This document shows, in pieces, positions 1,323 to 21,263 of a stretch of DNA of 24,398 nt. Every line of letters starts with the position of its first letter. Positions within the stretch are counted from its first letter, which is position 1. A program made the translations under genes and the position numbers. The stretch is from a virus: positions 1 to 24,398 of the IMG/VR virus record IMGVR_UViG_3300024348_000241. One strand, 5' to 3'. The notes beneath the pieces are model-generated. The model saw nothing but the letters and a program-made list of their open reading frames with translations, did no database searches and was not told where the DNA came from.

Positions 1323-4300
1323 CTATGTACCTGAACCGCCTGCAAACATTGCATGCGTCAACATACTACCTGCTACACCGTGAGCCGCACCACTGAGTGG
1401 ATCACCTTGAATATTAACTGTAGTAAGTATATTAATATTTCCGCCAAGTGCTTTAAAAATTCTATCGCCTGTAAAACTTATATCACCTGCATTTAATCTG
1501 TTAACTGCTACATCTGATCCACCACTTGAAATACGTGATTTAACATATATACCAATTGCCTTTTGTGTTGGTACAATATTATTTGAGTTAGCAGTAAACG
1601 TACCATCTGTACTAAACTCTCTAACAACAGCACCTGTTCCGCCTAGCACCACGCCGCCTAATGCTAACTCATCTAATCCGCTAAGATCAAAGAAACTAGC
1701 ATTAATTGATATTGTACCAGTTGATTGCTCGACTTCAAATAGTTCACCAACTCTAAAATTACCATCTTGGTCAGTACTTGTATAAAATACTCTACCGCCG
1801 TCATATTGTAATACTTCGTTAAATTGCTGTGGTTCGTTTACTGAATCAAATCCAAACACATATAATGCTGGATAGTTTGTATCTGTAAAGTTACCCGAGC
1901 CAATATCTAAGAAGTCGTGTCCTGTTAGTCTAATTTGGCTATATTTTTTTCTTAATGTAACATTAGTTGCATGTGTTACTGCTTCTGCTCTACCTAAACT
2001 TGGGCTAATTTGGAATTCAGCATCAAATGTTGGTGCTGACCCTCCACTTGAAATAGTCTTAACAACATAAAAAGTTACATCGTCTATTCCTGATATAGCA
2101 ATATTGTCACCCGGCCCCGGAAGTTCTGATAAATTATTAACTATTAGTCGATCTGTAATTTGTAAAAGTTCGGCATATCCATCACCTGATGAAACAGTAC
2201 TAATAACGCTAAAATGTCCTGTTCCTCTATTAGTCCAAGTTGGCCAACCAAGTACACCATCATTAATTCTTGCTACATTTGTTACAGCTAAAGTTGATAC
2301 AGGATCAAACACTGTAACTACAGGAGGATCACTAACATCATAAAAACTTCCTGGATTACTTATAACAAATGTTGCAATTCTGCCACTTCCTACAATAGCA
2401 ATAGCTTCTGCTTTTGCTCCAGTAATAATTCTAGTACCTGTTTCAGTAGCACTAGCAACACCAATCCAGTTACCATTATTTGCCGCAATACTAGTCCAAT
2501 CTGCGGCGGACTGTGTAACTCTAGAGTACCAACAAAATCCATCTCTACTCATTGCTACAATATCTGATAAGGGATCTAATGCAACAAATAAGCCTTCATT
2601 ATACGCAAGATCTCTCCATTGTCCTGTTTCCATACTACCTTCGTACCATGTTATTCCGTCAAGACTAACTGCTGTTACGCATCGTGTACTATCGCTTTTT
2701 TCTGATATAGCAACAAATCTATCGTTACCATATACTACTCTATTCCATTCTTGACTTGACGGAAGTGTACTTTGAACCCAAGATACCCCGTCGTCAATAC
2801 TGTAGTATGCTTTGTCGCCGCCTGCTTGAATTACAACAAACTTAGATTGGCCGTATGCTACACTAGCCCAATCAGCAGTAATTCCAATATTTACTGTAGC
2901 CCATGCACTACCGTTATCAGTTGACCTTGCTAAAGTTGATGATCCGGTGCTATCACTTGTTCTAGGAACTGCTATAACTACATCCGAACCGTTACCGCAC
3001 ACATCGCTCCAATCTAAAGATGTTGGAAGTGTGCTACTAGACCAAGTTGTTCCATCCGATGAATAACCTGCAGAACTTCCTGCTTCTGCAACTGCAATAT
3101 ATCTTGAATTATTAAACGTTACTGCCTGCCAATCAGCAGTTACTGGTAATGTACCTGTGCTCCAAGATAGCCCATCTGCTGATGTTGCCGCAGATGTTGA
3201 ACCCTTTGCAATAGCTACAAATCCCGATGTTCCGTATGTAATGCTTTGCCACCTAGCTGTTGCAGGTAACGAAGTTGTTTGTGTTTGGAATGAAGGATAA
3301 GGTATATCTACACGAGGTTCAATAACATAATAACTACTTTCATCTAGTGCAGGTGCAATTGGCATTCCTGTTACATGCTCCCACCCTGGAAGTCCTGTTG
3401 ATTCTTGCTCTACTGTTACAAGTTTAACCGCAGTATTAAATGTTTTAATTTTAGCATACTGTCCTGTTCCTGTTCCTGAATCAATTCTTATTCGCATACC
3501 TATATATTTTTCTTCTGTTCCTGTGTCAGCACCTGATAATGTAATTTGTGTTGTATTACCGTTTTGAGCTTTATTTAATACAAATTGATAATTAGCACCA
3601 CCAATAAAGTTAGAAGCTTCTTCTGTTGCAAAAATTTCTGAAATGCCCCCGGTTCTAAACTCGTTATAATCTAAGACTTGGCCAATACCTGGTCCTGCAA
3701 ATGACACTGTTGCATTTGTATAATTTTGTCCTGCATTTGAAAATCCAAATCCGTATATTTGATTTTTATCAGTATATGTGTTATAAATTTGTGCTTGTTT
3801 AGATCTGTTATTAACTGTTGCCGTTGCTGGTGTTTCACTACTATTATAACCTTCAGCTACGCTACCATATAGTCCGTATGAGTTGTTACCGTTTAGTGCT
3901 CTTATCTTGCCGCCATCAGTACAAAGATAACCAATATGGCAATAGTATGTAAACACACTAACAAGCTCTGATAGCCCGTCTGCATTGACCCAATATCCAA
4001 TACCGTCACTTAATATCTGTGTAAAGTCATTTGCAACCATAGACTTATTACCGCCATTATGTAAAGTTCCATCAACTTTCATTCCAATACACCCATTACC
4101 GAATGTTGATACGTTTTGTACATATGGAGATTTACTAGTAATGTGTGCATATGTATCACCTGGTCCATTTGCTGGATCTAATGCAACATACGCTCCAGCA
4201 CTTGGGCGTCTTGTTAAATTATCATTAGGATCACCTAGTGTTCCGTTTAGCCCTTGTAGTGACATATTTCTTAAACCTGATCCATTGTGCATTCTAAACA

Positions 4301-6203
4301 TATCAGAGGTTTCATAACCAGCCGCAGGCTGTACTGTTACGCTTCTTAATTCGTCGCCAACAATAGCTGTATCTGCTGGAACAACAATTGGTAACACTTC
4401 TTGATATAATCCTGTTGCACAGAATATTGTAGCAGGTGCTCTTGTAGCAATATCGCCTCGTATATATTGACATGCATAATTAATAGATGCATATGCTGTA
4501 GCAGGATTACCCCCAAACCCTACAGCATCAGTTCCGTTAGGAGAAACATAGTAAACGTTAACTGTTTTATTTAAATCCTCCCATTTTACTATATTAGTAT
4601 CATCAACTTTTAATGCCGAACCTGCAACTCCTATAGTAAGGTTTGTTGGTCCTGCTGTACTTCCGTCGTATGTTGTATTGTATGTACGCATGTCACCTCT
4701 ATAGCGTAACGTATTGTTTACAGCGGCAGTTGAATTACCAAAATATATAGTCCAATAACTATTTGCTCCTGTTTCTGGATCTACGTCAAATATAGGTCTT
4801 GCTTCAAATATATTACTATAATGTTGCTTCTTGCAAATGTATGTAATACTCCTGTCCATAACAACGTCACCTGGGTAGTATTGGAAGAAGCTACTATCAG
4901 ATGCATCGCCTACAGTTTCGTACCCTAAGAACTCTTGCCATTCACCTTTCCAAAATATTCCTGTTACTAATAGTAACCATTTAGATACACCTTCAGCGTT
5001 GTATATTCCGTCCTTTATTGGTTGATCACTACCGCCGGGGTCAGTGTCGCCTGGCTCAACTAGATCACTTGGTATTATTAAAACTCTTGCTTCGTATAAG
5101 TATCCATTCTTTCTTACTACGCTACCCATTGGATATACTTGTGTAATATCCCAATCGCCTTTAAAATCATATCCTCTAGTTAATAATTCCCACTTGCCGG
5201 CGTCTTGTAATAATCCTTGTTCAAAAGGAGTTTCGCCTATGCTAAGTTCTAAACATGTATATGTATATCCGCCATACGTAACAATGTCACCTGGTTGATA
5301 AAGTACTGCCGCGTTCCATTCTGTTTCGTATCCTAAACCAGGAACCCAAAGATCCCAATCCACTCCATTAAAGAATGTATCAGTTCCACTCATTCCTCTT
5401 TTTGCTTTATATAAACTAGAACCGTATCTTACAATATCGTTAGTTTTATAGTAACTACCAGTCCACTCGCCTTTATATTCAATGCCTACGCTAACTAATT
5501 CCCACTTAGCTATACTTGAATCTAAACCTAAATCAGTACCAATACCTTCTGTTATGTCATCATTACTTGTATGGCCTACTGTACATCTATATAAGTTGCC
5601 GCCGTATCTTACTACATCATCTTTAATATATCGTGTTCCTACAGCCCAATTATTTTTCCAAAAATCACTTCTTTGAAGTACTGCCCATTTTGATTGGTCG
5701 TATTCTATTCCTGCATTGGTTGTATTTGATTGGTGGTCAGTAAGGCAAATATATACAATACCATTATAACGTACTACATCATTCTTTTTATATTCTGTAA
5801 ATGCTGACCATAGATTTAACCAATTATAACCTTTAGCAAACGGGGTCCATTTAGCTTGATCGTTTTCTAATCCTAATGCTACGCTAGATGCACTAGTATG
5901 ACTATCAATACAACTATAAACAATTCCTCTATATTTTATTAAATCATTAACTTTGTAAAATGTTGACGGTAGCCAGTCGCCCTTCCAGGCTTTACCGTCG
6001 GCTACTTGTTCCCACTTAGGTGTTGATTCGCCGCTTATTGTATAATCTAAGTCTGTGTTAAAATCAGCAGATGCAGTGTGACTTGTTAAAGCAACAAATG
6101 CTTTACCACCGTATGAAATTATGTCATCTTTAATATAAGCTGTTCCGGTAACCCAAGTACCTTTCCAGTTATACCTAATCCTATCAATTCTAAATTCTGC
6201 CAT
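1323..6203 (-). CDS. Large multidomain tail fibre/adhesin: CBM repeats, beta-helix, beta-propeller
   Basis: This 1626-aa protein is probably a virion adhesin. Residues 1 to about 485 hold eight CBM5/12-like repeats (W...W...Y..(N/G)D.V.Y.G..Y.C...H). From about 550 to 785 there is a pectate-lyase/DUF1565-like right-handed beta-helix, starting with YYVSPNGTDA and shared in weaker form with the 1415- and 1709-aa fibres. From about 970 to 1260 there are seven repeats of roughly 40 residues with the pattern (D/R)W..(V/I).(Y/F)....(F/Y)VA.........S.DG..W, which look like Asp-box/BNR blades and would close a seven-bladed propeller. The C-terminal region carries FYTSTDQDGNFRVGELFEV, which matches FTSVDHRGDFRVGDAFYV in the 1709-aa fibre, and ends in a Gly/Ala-rich tail. 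The ATG at 6203 has an AGGAAAG ribosome-binding site. No catalytic residues could be assigned, so I call it binding rather than enzymatic. Confidence 0.9.
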   Translation of the reverse strand: MAEFRIDRIRYNWKGTWVTGTAYIKDDIISYGGKAFVALTSHTASADFNTDLDYTISGESTPKWEQVADGKAWKGDWLPSTFYKVNDLIKYRGIVYSCIDSHTSASSVALGLENDQAKWTPFAKGYNWLNLWSAFTEYKKNDVVRYNGIVYICLTDHQSNTTNAGIEYDQSKWAVLQRSDFWKNNWAVGTRYIKDDVVRYGGNLYRCTVGHTSNDDITEGIGTDLGLDSSIAKWELVSVGIEYKGEWTGSYYKTNDIVRYGSSLYKAKRGMSGTDTFFNGVDWDLWVPGLGYETEWNAAVLYQPGDIVTYGGYTYTCLELSIGETPFEQGLLQDAGKWELLTRGYDFKGDWDITQVYPMGSVVRKNGYLYEARVLIIPSDLVEPGDTDPGGSDQPIKDGIYNAEGVSKWLLLVTGIFWKGEWQEFLGYETVGDASDSSFFQYYPGDVVMDRSITYICKKQHYSNIFEARPIFDVDPETGANSYWTIYFGNSTAAVNNTLRYRGDMRTYNTTYDGSTAGPTNLTIGVAGSALKVDDTNIVKWEDLNKTVNVYYVSPNGTDAVGFGGNPATAYASINYACQYIRGDIATRAPATIFCATGLYQEVLPIVVPADTAIVGDELRSVTVQPAAGYETSDMFRMHNGSGLRNMSLQGLNGTLGDPNDNLTRRPSAGAYVALDPANGPGDTYAHITSKSPYVQNVSTFGNGCIGMKVDGTLHNGGNKSMVANDFTQILSDGIGYWVNADGLSELVSVFTYYCHIGYLCTDGGKIRALNGNNSYGLYGSVAEGYNSSETPATATVNNRSKQAQIYNTYTDKNQIYGFGFSNAGQNYTNATVSFAGPGIGQVLDYNEFRTGGISEIFATEEASNFIGGANYQFVLNKAQNGNTTQITLSGADTGTEEKYIGMRIRIDSGTGTGQYAKIKTFNTAVKLVTVEQESTGLPGWEHVTGMPIAPALDESSYYVIEPRVDIPYPSFQTQTTSLPATARWQSITYGTSGFVAIAKGSTSAATSADGLSWSTGTLPVTADWQAVTFNNSRYIAVAEAGSSAGYSSDGTTWSSSTLPTSLDWSDVCGNGSDVVIAVPRTSDSTGSSTLARSTDNGSAWATVNIGITADWASVAYGQSKFVVIQAGGDKAYYSIDDGVSWVQSTLPSSQEWNRVVYGNDRFVAISEKSDSTRCVTAVSLDGITWYEGSMETGQWRDLAYNEGLFVALDPLSDIVAMSRDGFCWYSRVTQSAADWTSIAANNGNWIGVASATETGTRIITGAKAEAIAIVGSGRIATFVISNPGSFYDVSDPPVVTVFDPVSTLAVTNVARINDGVLGWPTWTNRGTGHFSVISTVSSGDGYAELLQITDRLIVNNLSELPGPGDNIAISGIDDVTFYVVKTISSGGSAPTFDAEFQISPSLGRAEAVTHATNVTLRKKYSQIRLTGHDFLDIGSGNFTDTNYPALYVFGFDSVNEPQQFNEVLQYDGGRVFYTSTDQDGNFRVGELFEVEQSTGTISINASFFDLSGLDELALGGVVLGGTGAVVREFSTDGTFTANSNNIVPTQKAIGIYVKSRISSGGSDVAVNRLNAGDISFTGDRIFKALGGNINILTTVNIQGDPLSGAAHGVAGSMLTHAMFAGGSGT

Positions 6204-6218
6204 TTTCTTTCCTAATCT

Positions 6219-6941
6219 TTAAGTAAGTGTATTTATTTGTCCGCCCATACCACTATGATTTACACAGTAATAATATAACGTTGGAGCGTTAACCGGAATT
6301 TGTATTTTAACATATGCGCCTTCTAACCCTGCTGTACTAATAGTAGTAACTCCAGTAGTATATTCTACTCCGCCACCATGTATTCCGTTTGGCGTTGTTG
6401 AAAATCTAATTGGATGAGTATTATTTGAAGAATCAGCTTGTCCAAATGTATAAGTTTGTCCTTCAAATAAATTTAATGTAGGAGCAACAATATCGTTAAG
6501 ATAAAACTTATTACCTGATCCTGGATTAGCTATTGTAACTTTAAAATGCTTTGGATTATAGTCTCCACTACCGTCAGTACTAACACCTGTTGGATATGTA
6601 TAAGGTCTATTAAATCTAACAACTAGTTCGCCTTCATCGTTAATGTAATAAAATAAGTGTCTTTCGTCCCAGCGTAGTTGTTCATATGTTAAATTCTCAT
6701 AAACATATTCATGATTTTGATCTCTTCCCTCAAAGAAGTCAGTTCCTTGTTCAAAGTCTTTATAATTATTATTAGGATCGCCTGGCGCATTTACTTGTAT
6801 AGTTGCATTTGGATCCATTTGATCTACTTTTGTAATAAACAATTCACCATCGTCAGTTCTACGTAGACCGTAAAAAAATCTACCATCTACACCACCTAAT
6901 ATATTGTCTGCACTGTTACCAAAATATGCTGTGTTTGACAT
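6219..6941 (-). CDS. Virion protein with C-terminal cupredoxin-like domain
   Basis: This 240-aa protein has an N-terminal half of unknown fold that opens MSNTAYFGNS and contains a YEQLRWDERHLFYYINDEGE stretch. The C-terminal 95 residues look like a cupredoxin. A beta-rich segment (FYLND...NLFEGQTYTFGQ) is followed by NNTHPIRFS with His176, and near the end YYYCVNHSGMGG gives Cys226, His229 and Met232. The spacing His...Cys-x2-His-x2-Met resembles the type-1 copper ligand set of plastocyanin-like proteins, though copper binding is an inference. There is no signal peptide. It is the third gene of a run with the 1709-aa fibre and the 109-aa protein, which indicates a virion role near the tail fibres. 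The last codons overlap the weak late-promoter motif of the next gene. Confidence 0.85.
   Translation of the reverse strand: MSNTAYFGNSADNILGGVDGRFFYGLRRTDDGELFITKVDQMDPNATIQVNAPGDPNNNYKDFEQGTDFFEGRDQNHEYVYENLTYEQLRWDERHLFYYINDEGELVVRFNRPYTYPTGVSTDGSGDYNPKHFKVTIANPGSGNKFYLNDIVAPTLNLFEGQTYTFGQADSSNNTHPIRFSTTPNGIHGGGVEYTTGVTTISTAGLEGAYVKIQIPVNAPTLYYYCVNHSGMGGQINTLT
6230..6237 (-). promoter_or_regulatory. Possible weak late promoter, AATAAATAC
   Basis: The minus strand reads AATAAATAC, 27 bases upstream of the ATG of the 1626-aa gene, the same distance as the better copies in this window. The first base differs from the consensus and the motif lies inside the last codons of the upstream gene, so it could be chance. 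Confidence 0.35.
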
Positions 6942-12533: not shown

Positions 12534-15500
12534 CTATCCAAAGATGATAGTATAGGTATTAAGGAGATCTGCCATGTCGGAAGCCGAGGCCGCACCGCCA
12601 CTTCCGACGGCTGTAGTCCAGGATGAACCAGTAAACACTTCTAAATAAGCAAGCTCAGTGTTGTATCTAGTATGGCCAATTTCTGGTGATGTTTCTCTAC
12701 CTGCAGTATTGCCTGCAGGCAATACTAATGCTTTATTATCGTTAAATTTTACAGTACCATCGCCTGTGTTTGCAAAAGAAACTGTTGAATTATCTGCATG
12801 AATATACAAGTCAGAAAGTTGTAAACTACCAAATGCAACCCTTGCATGTCTAGCATCAAGTGTTAAGTCTGTATCAGCAGATGTAACTGTAAGATTATTA
12901 GCATCTAAAGTCATATTACTAAGTTCAACTTTATTAAATTCAGTTTTATTATTACTAGTAAACTTAGAAACAATAGATCCGTTTATCTTAAAATTTAAAT
13001 CATTACTAATACTAGAAAGTTCTATTCCTGTTTGATAATTGTCCGAAAGTAATGCACTACTAAGAACAACATTTGTTGTTGGTCCGTATCCAACAAATTG
13101 ATTTATAGTTGTATTATATCTAACTGTGCCAGCTGTAGGAGAACTGCTCCGCTGTGCAGTTGTGCCTTTTGGTAATAAAATAGAACCAGTTGTACTAATA
13201 TTTAAGATATCAGTAGGATCTAATTGTAGATTTCCGCTGGTATTTGCTAATATATTACTAGTAAAAGGCAACCCGTTATAATCAACTATTCCGCTTCCGT
13301 TTGCTCTAAGTTCTAAATCACTATTACTAATTGTTGTTTCTACAAAATTATCATTAATTTGTATATTACCAAGTACTTCAAGGGATCCTAAGTCTACATC
13401 ATTTTGTATGTTAATATTTTTTGTGTTAAGAGTTCCACTAACTGTAATATTATTAGAAATTGCAACATCTTCATTCATAGAGATAATGCCCGAGCCACTT
13501 GCACGTAATTCTAAATCAGTGTCAGTAACAATAGTATTAATTGTATTGCCGCTTATTCTTATCTTATCAATGTTTGATTTTAGCGTAGATGTTCCTGCTA
13601 TGTTTAAGTTTACAGAATTAAAGTTAAGTGTTTCAAATGTATTTTGTACATCTATACTACCAATAGTAGTTGTACCATTAACTGTAAGATCGTTCTCAAT
13701 AACAACGTTTTCACCGAATGTAACTTTACCTGTTCCATTAGCTCGTAATTCTAAATTAGCATCTGAGTCTTTAGTACTAATTACATTTCCGCTAAGAGAT
13801 ACACCTTCAAATATACTGCTACCTACACCGGATATATTCGTTGCAGTTATATTATCAACAGTAAGTGTGTTATTAATCGTAGTAGCTTGTAATGAGATTG
13901 GACCTAACACTGTTAAGTTATTCTCTGCAATAAAATTTTCTTTAATTCGTACAATACCAGTACCGCTTGCTCTAAACTCTAAATCACTATTAGAATCTGT
14001 ACTAGTAACTCTATTTCCTGCAAACATTATATCTTCAAATATAATTTGTTTATTTTCAGAATTAAGAGTTTGTACTATTAATTTATTTGCTCCTAGGTTT
14101 CCTGTTGAAGTTGATGCAACAGTACTTGTGGCCGGAGTTATTACATCACCCGTGAGTACAACATTTTCTTGGAATCTTACAGTCCCTGTTCCACTTGCTC
14201 TAAGTTCTAAATCGCTATTACTAGTTCTAGTTGATATCATATTATCAGCTATAGCAATATTTTCTATTACTGCATCGCCTGACAAAATAATATTTTGTGA
14301 AAGTAGTTCTTCTCCAACTACTTTATCTAATCCTGACGCACTACCAATACTAATATTTGCACTTGGAGCAACTAAGTTTACTACATCTAGGTCTGATAAA
14401 AAATTAACTTTTCCTGTTCCTGCAGGATCTAAACTTAGATCATCGTTGCCTGTTGTTGTTTTAATTTGGTTTCCATTAAATAGTATCTTATCAAACGTTG
14501 TTAAGCTGTTACTAGAAATTAAAGTAGGTGTACTAACTTGACGTAATGTTGTAGTTTTATTGCTATCTGTTTCATTAAAGTTTCCAGTAATTGTAAGTTG
14601 TCCATTTACATTTACTTGATTTGATAAATTATTAATGCCTGTTGTATCTGTGTTTACTATTGTTCCTAATACTGTAGTTGCTGTAACAATAACGTTTCCA
14701 GTGCCACTGGTAGCAAAGTCTAAATCTGCATTAGATTCGTCTGTAATAATAGTATTACCTTGAATAGATAAATTATCAAGGTCTATATTACTGGCATGAA
14801 TAGTGTTCCACTGTTTTCCGTTTTTGCCTATACTGTAACTGTTTAGATTTGGAATTAAATTGCCTTCAATATCTGCATTAAAATCAATTTTGTCAGTGTC
14901 TGCATTTCCTAGTCTAACTAGTGTTCCTGCTAAGGTTACATTGCCTGTTACATCTAGGTTACCTGTAATGTTTGTATCACTAGTAATATTAATATCGTCG
15001 CCGCCGGCTTCTATTGTTAAATCTCCTACAATAGATTCCATCGTAGAACCTGAAAATTTAATAAAATCAGTTTCTACTTTTTCACCTTTAAGCTGTACAG
15101 ATTGGCCGCCTGTTGAAACTGTAAGTTTCTCAACACCACTAAAATCAAAGTTAGTTGAGTCAATTATTGTTTCTCCTGATTGTTGATCAACTGCTAATGC
15201 CCCTCCAACACGATAAACTCCGCTATGATCTAACGAAGTAAACACAACAACAGCGTTGTTTAGTTTTTCAACTTCGTTTGCTTGTATGTGTAATGTTTTA
15301 TCGTTTGTTGTATCTTTTCCTACACCTATGTACCCAAAGTTATGATTTACTAAGTATATTAATGTACTTGCACCGTTTGCTACAATTCCTTTAGTTCCGT
15401 AAACACACGCACTTCCTATGCATCTTATTTCTGCACCGTACTTTACACCTTGACCTGCAAGTCCTGATGATCCTTGTTCTGTTTTTATGCCAGCAGATGC

Positions 15501-16781
15501 AAAGTATGTAAAGCTGTTAAGCCATTCAATCCTTGCTCCGTTCTTTGCTGTTAGTCCTTGTTGATTTGGAGTAATAAATGTTGCCGCATGAAATAGCATA
15601 CCAGCTTCTTGAGATACTGTTGTAACACTTGCGCCGTCAACTAGTGCGCCTCTACCAGCATCGCCTTGATCAAATCCTCTTGGGTCTGCCGCATTAGTTA
15701 CACTACCTTTTGTAATAACAGTTACATTTCTAATATACGGACTTCTTGAAGTGACTACACTGTTTGTTGTATATCGGAACCCGTACCCAGTATCGGCACC
15801 ACTATTGTAATAAAAGTCTTTAATAGTTAAATTTTCAATAGTTACTTCGCCGTTTACTAAAAATGCATCACTAGACTCTGTTATACTACTAGGAGTTATA
15901 ATAACATTACGCATATCTTCGCCAGTAACTGTAACACCAACTGGTATTGTTATAGGAAATTTTTCTACATATGTACCAGGATATATATGAATTGTATCAC
16001 CAGCCGACACTAGTGTTATTGCTTTTTCTAAACTTAAAACTGTATCATTTAAGTGTATTCCTGTATTAGAATCACTACCATTTTTAGAAACATAAACAAT
16101 ATTTCCTTGTGTTTGTGTTAAACTAACACCGTCAATAGTTGCAAAATCAGCTGTTACTAATCCTGTTGTAACATCCTTTGCCCAAGAATTTGACCAACGC
16201 TTTGTAGTACTACCTAAATTATATGTTACTGTGTCGTCTGGTATAATATCAGTAACTAATTCGCCTGATAACGTTAAGCTATCATTGCTGTTATCGCCAA
16301 TGACAATATTTCCATTAGCTGTAATGTTACCAGTAGCATGTAAATCGCCGCTTACATTAGTGTTAGTTAATAATTCAATAGTACCTGTAGCGTTAGGAGA
16401 AAATGTTACCGGAGCATCGCTTACATAAGAATATATTCTATTATCTCGTATTATTAATTGATCAGTGCCTATACCAGTAGCATTTACTCCAGTAGCACCA
16501 TTTATTACAAATGATCCTGAAAGTGCATCTATTCCTGTATTACTAATAGTAAAATTATTAACAGTAACACTATTATTTGATACTAAATTTGTAGCATTAG
16601 CAGTGCCGTTAACTGTTAATTGTTGAGATGGTGCAGTAGTATTAACGCCAATTAAATTATTTTGTACGTCAAGTTTAAGGACAGGAGTACTTGCATTTAG
16701 ATTCCTAAAATCTAAGTTTACGTTATGTCTTAGTAAATTTTCCTCTAATACCGGACCGGATATTCTGCCTAATTGTGCCAC
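12534..16781 (-). CDS. Giant tail fibre with beta-helix and NGTG repeats (GTG start)
   Basis: This 1415-aa protein is a paralogue of the 1709-aa fibre. The start is GTG at 16781, chosen because AGGAGA lies five bases upstream and MAQLGRISGPVLEENLL then aligns with the paralogue's N-terminus. A strand motif at about 160-204 (DDTVTYNLGSTTKRWSN) precedes a DUF1565/pectate-lyase-like beta-helix at about 224-435, starting IVYVSKNGSD. A second copy of the strand motif follows at about 620-664, then about eight repeats with the core NSDLELRASGTG. Two modules of the GTTAQR...RYNT type lie at about 1202-1240 and 1349-1394. It lacks the LamG-like domain found in the paralogue at the same place. I infer a long beta-structured fibre carried by the virion, probably trimeric as in other phage fibres. 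No enzymatic residues were identified. Confidence 0.9.
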   Translation of the reverse strand: MAQLGRISGPVLEENLLRHNVNLDFRNLNASTPVLKLDVQNNLIGVNTTAPSQQLTVNGTANATNLVSNNSVTVNNFTISNTGIDALSGSFVINGATGVNATGIGTDQLIIRDNRIYSYVSDAPVTFSPNATGTIELLTNTNVSGDLHATGNITANGNIVIGDNSNDSLTLSGELVTDIIPDDTVTYNLGSTTKRWSNSWAKDVTTGLVTADFATIDGVSLTQTQGNIVYVSKNGSDSNTGIHLNDTVLSLEKAITLVSAGDTIHIYPGTYVEKFPITIPVGVTVTGEDMRNVIITPSSITESSDAFLVNGEVTIENLTIKDFYYNSGADTGYGFRYTTNSVVTSRSPYIRNVTVITKGSVTNAADPRGFDQGDAGRGALVDGASVTTVSQEAGMLFHAATFITPNQQGLTAKNGARIEWLNSFTYFASAGIKTEQGSSGLAGQGVKYGAEIRCIGSACVYGTKGIVANGASTLIYLVNHNFGYIGVGKDTTNDKTLHIQANEVEKLNNAVVVFTSLDHSGVYRVGGALAVDQQSGETIIDSTNFDFSGVEKLTVSTGGQSVQLKGEKVETDFIKFSGSTMESIVGDLTIEAGGDDINITSDTNITGNLDVTGNVTLAGTLVRLGNADTDKIDFNADIEGNLIPNLNSYSIGKNGKQWNTIHASNIDLDNLSIQGNTIITDESNADLDFATSGTGNVIVTATTVLGTIVNTDTTGINNLSNQVNVNGQLTITGNFNETDSNKTTTLRQVSTPTLISSNSLTTFDKILFNGNQIKTTTGNDDLSLDPAGTGKVNFLSDLDVVNLVAPSANISIGSASGLDKVVGEELLSQNIILSGDAVIENIAIADNMISTRTSNSDLELRASGTGTVRFQENVVLTGDVITPATSTVASTSTGNLGANKLIVQTLNSENKQIIFEDIMFAGNRVTSTDSNSDLEFRASGTGIVRIKENFIAENNLTVLGPISLQATTINNTLTVDNITATNISGVGSSIFEGVSLSGNVISTKDSDANLELRANGTGKVTFGENVVIENDLTVNGTTTIGSIDVQNTFETLNFNSVNLNIAGTSTLKSNIDKIRISGNTINTIVTDTDLELRASGSGIISMNEDVAISNNITVSGTLNTKNINIQNDVDLGSLEVLGNIQINDNFVETTISNSDLELRANGSGIVDYNGLPFTSNILANTSGNLQLDPTDILNISTTGSILLPKGTTAQRSSSPTAGTVRYNTTINQFVGYGPTTNVVLSSALLSDNYQTGIELSSISNDLNFKINGSIVSKFTSNNKTEFNKVELSNMTLDANNLTVTSADTDLTLDARHARVAFGSLQLSDLYIHADNSTVSFANTGDGTVKFNDNKALVLPAGNTAGRETSPEIGHTRYNTELAYLEVFTGSSWTTAVGSGGAASASDMADLLNTYTIIFG

Positions 16782-16822: not shown

Positions 16823-17782
16823 TTAGTTCGCGACGTACTTAATACGTACTGCACCACTACCACCGCGCCAACCATGGTCTCTAACACCTGGACACGGATT
16901 ACTTGCAGGACCACCTGATCCATAAGGTACATGCTGTTGACAACCTAACATGTCATAACACTGACATGCTCTATTACCCATCCAACATGATCCATGATAA
17001 ACACCCTGTGACGGATTTCTACTTGCCGCATTAAGTGCATTTACATATTGATGCATTCCTTGTCCTGACCAACGTGAGTAAGGACTATCATCTTCCGTAG
17101 CATATGATACAATAGTACCATTTGTCGCCATTACGTTTGCAGGTAATGCAACATGATAGTATTTCATACATGTACATGCAGGATAACAACCTAAGAAACT
17201 TGAACAACTAATACAACCACAACAGTTTACATCTCCACCATATCCACATGCCATCCAAGCACCACTACAAGCATTACATACTATACCACAGTTTGGTCCT
17301 CTGTTAGTTGTACAATAACCGTTTGCTCTATAGCAACAATATAAACTTGAGTTTGTTGAACAAAAACTTTGTCCGCCCATTCCACCCTGAGCACACATGC
17401 ACCCGTTAGATCCGGAAGCGTCAAACCAACATGCCGCAGACTGTGAACTACACCCTCTATTACATAATTGACTTGCGTTACCACAAGATTTACCCATACA
17501 TCCGCATGCTCTGTTTCCACTTGTAACGTTAAACTCTTTCATAGTATAAGCACCAGCATTGCCCGGAAGGCCTCCTCCACAGCAACACATTCTTGCGCCA
17601 CTGCCGCCAGCTCCCCATACTTCTAATCTAACTACCCCTGCTCCTGGAGATATCCAGCAAAACCCGTTACACATACAGCCGTACATTGAGCCGTTGTCAT
17701 ATGCCCAAATTTTACCTTTTTCTAAGTTTGTTTCCGCGGACTGGAAATTTTTACTACCTAATAAACTTTTTAGCGATGCCAT
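16823..17782 (-). CDS. Cysteine- and glycine-rich tail-tip-like protein
   Basis: This 319-aa protein contains 34 cysteines (10.7%), 29 of them between residues 36 and 205 and five between 266 and 297. Many are paired as C-x-C or CC (36/38, 66-68, 93/95, 128/130, 149/150, 187/188/190, 203/205, 273/275). The frame is typical of the glycine-rich domain at phage tail tips: an opening strand VVRLEVWGAGGSGA at 50-63, a low-complexity Gly/Ser/Cys body, and a closing GGSGAVRIKYV at 307-317. There is no signal peptide and no transmembrane segment. The ATG at 17782 follows AAGGAG. I infer a surface-exposed adhesin or fibre-tip protein. In the reducing cytoplasm the cysteines would be free thiols or bind metal; disulfides could form after lysis. 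The residue positions are seen directly, the role is inference. Confidence 0.85.
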   Translation of the reverse strand: MASLKSLLGSKNFQSAETNLEKGKIWAYDNGSMYGCMCNGFCWISPGAGVVRLEVWGAGGSGARMCCCGGGLPGNAGAYTMKEFNVTSGNRACGCMGKSCGNASQLCNRGCSSQSAACWFDASGSNGCMCAQGGMGGQSFCSTNSSLYCCYRANGYCTTNRGPNCGIVCNACSGAWMACGYGGDVNCCGCISCSSFLGCYPACTCMKYYHVALPANVMATNGTIVSYATEDDSPYSRWSGQGMHQYVNALNAASRNPSQGVYHGSCWMGNRACQCYDMLGCQQHVPYGSGGPASNPCPGVRDHGWRGGSGAVRIKYVAN

Positions 17783-17800: not shown

Positions 17801-18301
17801 TTATTTATCAAAGTTGTGTAGCACTGTAACTGGCTTACCAACTGGGGGTGCAGATCCAAATCTAATGTAAAACCCTTCAGCCTTACCTGCAGGATTTTGG
17901 ACCAAAGTATAATTTGTGCTTGCAATTTGAAACACTGTTTCAACTAATACTATTACATTCTGTGGAGCAGATGGAACTGGTTGATCTATATCGCCACTAT
18001 CTAGTGGTCCAAAGTCAACCTCACTAGCATCGCCTACTCCTAAATTCTGTTGTACAATAGTTACTGGTTCTTGCCTTTTTAATTTTGCCCAAGTACCGTC
18101 TGCATAAGATTCGTGTGCTCCAGTTTCAGTATTATATCTAATCATTCCGTTAACAGGAAACAGTGGGCGACTTGCAGTATTTCCCATCGGAACTACTACT
18201 CCTTGTTCGCCACCTAATTGAACAACTTGATTGATATCGTACCGAATACCTTTAGCTTTAATATTTCTTACGCTAGTACTTTGTGCTTTAATTAATCTCA
18301 T
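17801..18301 (-). CDS. Small tail-fibre-associated protein with RYNT module
   Basis: This 166-aa protein has at residues 34-75 the module VVVPMGNTASRP...GMIRYNTETGAHESY...W, which also ends both giant fibres in this window. In those proteins it lies at the C-terminal end, so here it is essentially a free-standing copy. The remainder, rich in Val, Pro and Gly, ends FGSAPPVGKPVTVLHNFDK and is not recognised. It is the last of five closely spaced genes starting at 20482, and its stop codon overlaps the late promoter of the Cys-rich gene. Likely role: a fibre-assembly or tip-linking protein of the virion. Confidence in the gene is high; the role is inferred from module sharing and position. Confidence 0.8.
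   Translation of the reverse strand: MRLIKAQSTSVRNIKAKGIRYDINQVVQLGGEQGVVVPMGNTASRPLFPVNGMIRYNTETGAHESYADGTWAKLKRQEPVTIVQQNLGVGDASEVDFGPLDSGDIDQPVPSAPQNVIVLVETVFQIASTNYTLVQNPAGKAEGFYIRFGSAPPVGKPVTVLHNFDK
17802..17809 (-). promoter_or_regulatory. T4-type late promoter, GATAAATAA
   Basis: The minus strand reads GATAAATAA, overlapping the stop codon of the 166-aa gene and 20 bases before the ATG of the Cys-rich gene at 17782. It lies at a spacing similar to the other late-promoter copies. Confidence 0.55.
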
Positions 18302-20858: not shown

Positions 20859-20886
20859 ATAATAGCATCATTATAATAAAAGTCAA
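20859..20886 (-). promoter_or_regulatory. Sigma70-like promoter for the candidate RNA
   Basis: On the minus strand TTGACT (20886-20881) is followed after 16 bases by TATTAT (20864-20859). The -35 box overlaps the TGA stop codon of iscU. This is the only good host-type promoter I noticed in a window otherwise dominated by late-type motifs. A transcript would begin near 20852. A second TATAAT at 20875-20870 lacks a suitable -35. Confidence 0.55.
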
Positions 20887-21263
20887 CCTTTTATTTTAGA
20901 TTTATAATCTTTTATTGCAGATTTAATTGCATCTTCGGCTAAAACTGAACAATGTATTTTAACTGGCGGTAGTGCAAGTTCTTCTGCAAGGTCTATATTC
21001 TTTATTTCACCTGCTTTATCAAGTGTCATGCCTTTAACCATTGTAGTTAATAAACTTGAACTTGCTATTGCACTACCGCAACCGTAAGTTTTAAATTTTG
21101 CATCTTTAATGATTCCATCTTCTACTTCTATCTGTAGACGCATAACATCACCACAAGCAGGTGCTCCTACCATTCCTGTTCCTATGTTATCTTTTTTGGG
21201 ATCAAATGTTCCAACGTTGCGTGGGTTTTCGTAATGGTCCATTACTTTTTCTGAGTATGCCAT
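20883..21263 (-). CDS. iscU: IscU-type iron-sulfur cluster assembly scaffold protein
   Basis: This 126-aa protein is full length for IscU (about 128 aa). IscU is the cytoplasmic scaffold on which a cysteine desulfurase and an iron donor build a [2Fe-2S] cluster before transfer to apo-proteins. All key residues are present: Cys37 and Asp39 in GAPACGDVM, Cys62 in TYGCGSAIASS, and His104-Cys105 in VKIHCSVLAEDAI. The chaperone-recognition motif LPPVK is at 98-102, and the N-terminal YSEKVMDHYENPRNVG is typical. No desulfurase, ferredoxin or HscA/HscB gene is in the window, so it would rely on host partners. It lies between the gp23 terminator and the candidate RNA, under its own TATAAATAA late motif, and has no terminator of its own. 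It looks intact and under selection. The identity is firm; the target apo-protein is unknown. Confidence 0.95.
   Translation of the reverse strand: MAYSEKVMDHYENPRNVGTFDPKKDNIGTGMVGAPACGDVMRLQIEVEDGIIKDAKFKTYGCGSAIASSSLLTTMVKGMTLDKAGEIKNIDLAEELALPPVKIHCSVLAEDAIKSAIKDYKSKIKG

Follow-up and report, generated by a model that had tools for sequence, protein, structure and literature searches.

The window, i.e., the whole 24,398-nucleotide stretch of viral DNA analysed here (IMG/VR record IMGVR_UViG_3300024348_000241), encodes a predicted glycine-rich tail-fibre tip protein with a dense and conserved load of cysteine (Table 1). Its scaffold is a known one, that of the Pam3-type glycine-rich fibre tip, and the conserved cysteine load makes it a variant of that scaffold. 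The protein is best explained as a receptor-facing tip with cysteine-studded loops, which would most likely carry free thiols at first and partial disulfides after lysis, a reading held with modest confidence. In the main text of the open-access papers searched, no description of this cysteine richness was found.

Table 1. Coordinates of the cysteine-rich gene, its cysteine-bearing segments and the adjoining genes in the window.
Feature	Position	Strand	Basis
Cys-rich, Gly-rich tail-fibre tip protein (predicted)	16823..17782	-	ORF, composition, PHROG 4205 match, Pam3 fibre fold match
Cys-dense body, residues 36-205, 29 of the 34 Cys	17168..17677	-	Residue positions; DSSP of the model
Cys66-Cys67-Cys68, mid-loop between predicted strands 49-56 and 79-86	17579..17587	-	
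C-terminal Cys patch, residues 266-297 (C266, C273, C275, C281, C297), >97% conserved	16892..16987	-	
Small protein, 112 aa	18305..18643	-	Orthologues in L001-L004 of the same family; precedes Cys-rich genes at most loci
166-aa protein between small protein and Cys-rich gene	17801..18301	-	PHROG matches
1415-aa fibre/baseplate-wedge-like protein, directly downstream of Cys-rich gene	12534..16781	-	phrog_13163 baseplate wedge subunit (E=5.5e-98), others

The gene is read on the minus strand from an ATG start, the plus-strand reading of the same span being interrupted by many stops. Its product contains 51 glycines (16%) and exactly the 34 cysteines in 319 residues (10.7%) that an earlier note on this DNA had counted. 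At least 34 cysteines in a protein of this length correspond to a binomial p of about 3e-18 against a background of 1.55%, the mean cysteine content of the ORFs of a related 169 kb phage contig. The same note had described the cysteines as often forming C-x-C or CC. Such pairs were literally present (seven and four, respectively), but not above what composition alone yields, with shuffles giving 4.1 ± 1.8 of each (p = 0.10 and 0.62). It is the cysteine total and its conservation that exceed chance, rather than the spacing in a single protein.

Relatives were collected from IMG/VR with a single-protein scan (19 loci) and an alignment scan (214 relatives, from which 79 distinct loci were kept), and a further scan with another paralogue yielded more family loci. 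Viral contigs yielded 165 distinct homologues of full length, each of which contains 28-40 cysteines and 44-65 glycines, and 21 cysteine columns are more than 97% conserved among them. Mean conservation is highest for cysteine among the residue types (0.84, versus 0.79 for glycine). At the cysteine codons of the 17 closest orthologues, 134 synonymous and 38 amino-acid-changing differences were counted, compared with 1419 and 1370 at the other codons; the cysteines are thus under clear purifying selection. Fixed cysteine codons, furthermore, vary synonymously between TGT and TGC. The idea that such a density is functional is thereby backed by conservation. Low-complexity drift, in which the richness would be a functionless compositional accident, is scarcely credible: the shuffle-like spacing in the window protein and the strongly differing cysteine positions of the window and cyanophage subfamilies would fit it, but it is already contradicted by the conserved columns, the rank of cysteine among residue types and the TGT/TGC variation, as well as by neighbouring ORFs, which are not cysteine-rich.

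The window protein matches PHROG 4205, whose function is unassigned in PHROG, over most of its length (E=1.1e-11; residues 34-317 on profile positions 46-285 of 287), and a reciprocal profile from isolate members recovered all 134 window-type proteins (best E 1.1e-17), confirming the homology. Divergent members with 24-36 cysteines each were identified in the cultured cyanophages P-SSM2 (36 and 36 per copy), S-CAM1 (36, 31 and 25), S-CAM3 (36, 35 and 24) and S-SSM7 (29, 28 and 30), all of them annotated as hypothetical protein. These homologues resemble the window protein in being cysteine-rich, tandem and located near a fibre chaperone and a carbamoyltransferase gene. However, identity to the window protein is only ~27-29%, few cysteine columns are held in common, and three tandem copies occur in three of the four isolates, as opposed to the two-plus-one arrangement of the window's clade. 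C67, C68, C130 and C149 are common to all eight aligned cyanophage-type proteins. By profile search, PHROG 4205 was absent from the pelagiphage HTVC008M and from S-SM1, Syn9 and S-PM2, three cyanophages with virion proteomes discussed in PMC3037559. Against the Pfam family Gly_rich_2 (PF21722), the window protein scores 18.4 bits, below the gathering cut-off of 24.3, which several family members pass (S-CAM1, 39.3 bits). The Gly_rich_2 proteins of HTVC008M and S-SM1 share this scaffold and lie near fibre genes, but they contain no cysteine and ~100 glycines, so that cysteine seems to replace glycine as the special residue; those of Syn9 have few cysteines, and glycine counts across the three phages range from ~60 to 100. 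In bacterial and archaeal genomes, one family match only was obtained, in a MAG labelled Euryarchaeota (L170, PAOW01000006.1), possibly a misbinned phage contig.

An AlphaFold2 monomer model was usable when built on a 95-sequence alignment (mean pLDDT 81.1, pTM 0.80), a 17-sequence alignment having reached a pLDDT of 40 only. No sequence relatives of the window protein were found in the PDB. By fold, the best PDB matches in Foldseek were the Pam3 fibre structures 7ypx (E=3.5e-05, probability 1.00) and 7yfw (3.7e-04), with modest TM-scores to Pam3 of 0.40-0.49 at ~10-12% sequence identity, followed by the mycobacteriophage Bxb1 tail tip (9d93) and the ALK/LTK glycine-rich domain. Among viral models, the best matches were the S-CAM3 and P-SSM2 family members and many "Glycine-rich domain" phage proteins. 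In the Pam3 gp24 fibre, a TNF-like sandwich bears glycine-rich loops that reach the distal tip, where receptor-binding residues have been proposed, and the fibre needs the chaperone gp25, which embraces the trimer (PMC9608196). Likewise, a TNF-like sandwich with glycine-rich distal loops is predicted for the window protein, for which a receptor-binding role is probable, and a putative tail-fibre chaperone is encoded with the family's arrays. The main difference lies in composition: the Pam3 gp24 glycine-rich domain is 39% glycine, and "cystein" appears nowhere in the text of that paper (PMC9608196), whereas the window protein pairs its cysteine load with a glycine content well short of such a poly-glycine distal domain. 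In addition, the N-terminal alpha-helical docking domain of Pam3 is not clearly predicted, the N-terminus of the model holding only a short, low-confidence helix (residues 4-11). Altogether, the tail-tip framework perceived in the earlier note agrees with the fold match, with the Gly_rich_2 matches of relatives and with the putative chaperone gene beside the multi-copy arrays. None of the cysteines falls in the six predicted sandwich strands (23-29, 49-56, 79-86, 207-213, 223-228 and 311-318); the model places all of them in loops, hairpins and other elements between these strands, which may include the distal tip. Where a cysteine varies, its substitute is mostly Arg, Asn, Gln, Lys or Thr, as is typical of exposed positions.

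Membership of the phage in the T4 superfamily is shown by its capsid protein, which shares 68-71% identity with the counterparts in jumbo phages including CBB and GAP32; one contig of the group measures 364 kb. Two arrangements account for most of the family's cysteine-rich genes: a tandem triplet, and a pair with a further copy ~22 kb off. It is this solitary copy that the window holds. The copy recurs with 100% identity on a contig of the same phage population, represented by two stretches (L002 and L042). Just past the low end of the window, L042 carries the rest of the fibre gene that starts in the window and two small proteins, followed by two more cysteine-rich genes, a ~227-aa protein, a glycosyltransferase-like gene and a carbamoyltransferase. 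A similar order of small proteins, cysteine-rich genes, a ~210-270 aa protein, a glycosyltransferase-like gene and a carbamoyltransferase was observed in S-CAM1, S-CAM3 and another contig (L015), with variations in S-SSM7 and P-SSM2. A gene for a putative tail-fibre assembly chaperone of ~220 aa lies beside or within the array at all 107 tandem pair or triplet loci with visible sequence, a count that includes overlapping stretches of the same contigs and hence loci that are not independent. The S-SSM7 version scores 38.4 bits against Phage_tail_APC (cut-off 26.6) and matches tail-fibre-assembly PHROGs; it is the only one above the Phage_tail_APC cut-off, the others being too divergent, so that their assignment comes from an iterated profile. 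The window copy has no adjoining chaperone gene; on the L002 contig, the putative chaperone is encoded away from this copy, together with the other two.

The S-CAM1 counterpart of the 112-aa small protein matches phrog_11338 (tail fibre protein), and the 166-aa protein matches fragments of phage structural families (phrog_25721, 6.4e-08; phrog_6005, virion structural, 6.2e-07). A secreted or intracellular cysteine-rich protein, e.g., a thiol or metal buffer during infection, could stand among tail genes by chance; this is very improbable in view of a neighbourhood of fibre genes and a putative fibre chaperone, which is conserved in distant phages, and of a predicted fold that resembles solved phage fibres. 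Elsewhere in the window, a very long fibre-like protein (1323-6203, minus strand) contains five matches to the carbohydrate-binding module CBM_5_12 (Pfam E=1.8e-35), and the repeats of a partial ORF (1-1278) look similar to those of this protein. The C-terminal part of the product of 6219-6941 (minus strand) is cupredoxin-like by eye (His...Cys-x2-His-x2-Met: THPIRFS...YYYCVNHSGMGG), so that this tail protein might hold copper; no Pfam, NCBIfam or PDB sequence match was obtained.

The state of the cysteines was approached through their numbers and their joint variation. Cysteine totals are even in 76 of the 165 proteins and odd in 89, and no significant co-change was detected among 666 pairs of cysteine columns on a tree built without these columns (best p 0.0018, uncorrected). 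Because even and odd totals are about equal and co-change is lacking, at most part of the cysteines would be in fixed pairs. The even number and the paired gain and loss expected of a fully disulfide-bonded protein are thus not observed, and a fully paired set appears unlikely from these alignments. For the redox switch envisaged in the earlier note, in which thiols or metal-bound cysteines would become locked in disulfides, these observations count against an end state with every cysteine paired. Pairs proposed from pairwise co-occurrence were dropped, none of them being significant on the tree. The total number, moreover, shows no clear buffering against drift (variance ratio 0.85). Relative to shuffles, C-x-C is in excess and C-x-x-C in deficit across the window subfamily, but the cyanophage subfamily does not repeat this pattern in that form, its most enriched spacing being C-C; since the two subfamilies differ in form, spacing signals were given no weight. 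A search for an Erv/ALR sulfhydryl oxidase returned no match, as did its control.

Partial disulfide stapling ranks first among the readings considered. Second, and rather unlikely, is that the same tail-fibre tip binds zinc, iron or copper in thiolate sites, which would stabilise it or mimic a host metal-uptake ligand. The invariant C-C-C, C-C and C-x-C groups resemble thiolate clusters, the random cysteine parity fits metal binding better than an all-disulfide protein, and metal in phage tail fibres has already been proposed, with HxH iron sites in T4 gp37 and the ferrojan horse hypothesis (PMC11705849). A metal-holding fibre tip might be common to T4 gp37 and the window protein, but no HxH motif occurs in the 319-aa sequence, and in the 17-sequence alignment a single column of histidine (H210) is invariant. 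In addition, no metal-binding family was matched in Pfam, NCBIfam or PDB sequences, and the C-x-x-C spacing, frequent in sites for zinc and iron, shows no enrichment among the homologues of the window subfamily, which are not independent (observed/shuffled 0.47).

Enzymatic modification ranks low. According to this reading, the cysteines would carry thioether cross-links or Fe-S clusters installed by phage enzymes, in line with an IscU gene in the window (20883-21263; TIGR01999, above cut-off), with radical-SAM genes, 1-12 each, in all eight large window-subfamily contigs searched, and with a radical-SAM/SPASM gene ~3.7 kb from the nearest cysteine-rich gene of the array in L015. However, P-SSM2, S-CAM1, S-CAM3 and S-SSM7 encode the cysteine-rich proteins with neither a radical-SAM gene nor IscU, which disfavours such chemistry as a general mechanism. 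IscU, furthermore, is present in only three of the eight large contigs, and in the relative G004 the radical-SAM genes form part of an island that also holds glycosyltransferase-like genes and further genes of metabolism. The modification reading is accordingly very improbable. As to these genes themselves, the window's IscU, an Fe-S scaffold protein with three cysteines present, is encoded on the minus strand beside the major capsid gene, and IscU of G004 is found ~94 kb from the orthologous cysteine-rich gene. Islands of 8-12 radical-SAM genes among glycosyltransferase-like and metabolic genes were noted in large marine T4-superfamily phages (L091 and L092, i.e., contig G004 at 118-146 kb, G018, G020 and G005).

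With partial stapling as the preferred reading, the protein would serve a large marine myovirus of the T4 superfamily as an adhesin with the architecture of Pam3 gp24, in which glycine-rich loops extend from the strands of a TNF-like beta-sandwich to the distal end. The tip, presumably carried on the virion, is probably trimeric and probably folded with the phage tail-fibre chaperone, and the two to three paralogues per genome presumably form separate tips or divide one tip between them. Studded with cysteines in its distal loops, it would most likely be in the free-thiol form when synthesised in the host cytoplasm. Once lysis has released it into oxic sea water, a large part of these cysteines, though not all, may form cross-loop or cross-subunit disulfides, thereby rigidifying a receptor-binding surface that a poly-glycine lattice stabilises in other phages.

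In sum, two to three copies of this probable tail-fibre tip protein, with cysteine at roughly every tenth residue and at positions fixed across relatives, are present in marine phages like that of the window and in some cyanophages, which suggests that the tips may be cross-linked or metal-holding. Tail-fibre tips set host range, and disulfide- or metal-rich adhesins are unexpected for proteins folded in a reducing cytoplasm. The occurrence of the family in cultured, sequenced cyanophages makes the thiol state and metal content of virions directly measurable. If the tips bind metal, a cysteine-based type would be added to the debate on phages as ocean metal ligands; if they are disulfide-stapled, they would represent an alternative to the poly-glycine lattice. 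Tentatively, and as a wider proposal that is itself doubtful, a dense conserved thiol surface on marine phage tips might bind metal or pass from thiol to disulfide on release, in which case the infectivity of free virions would depend on the redox state or trace metals of sea water.
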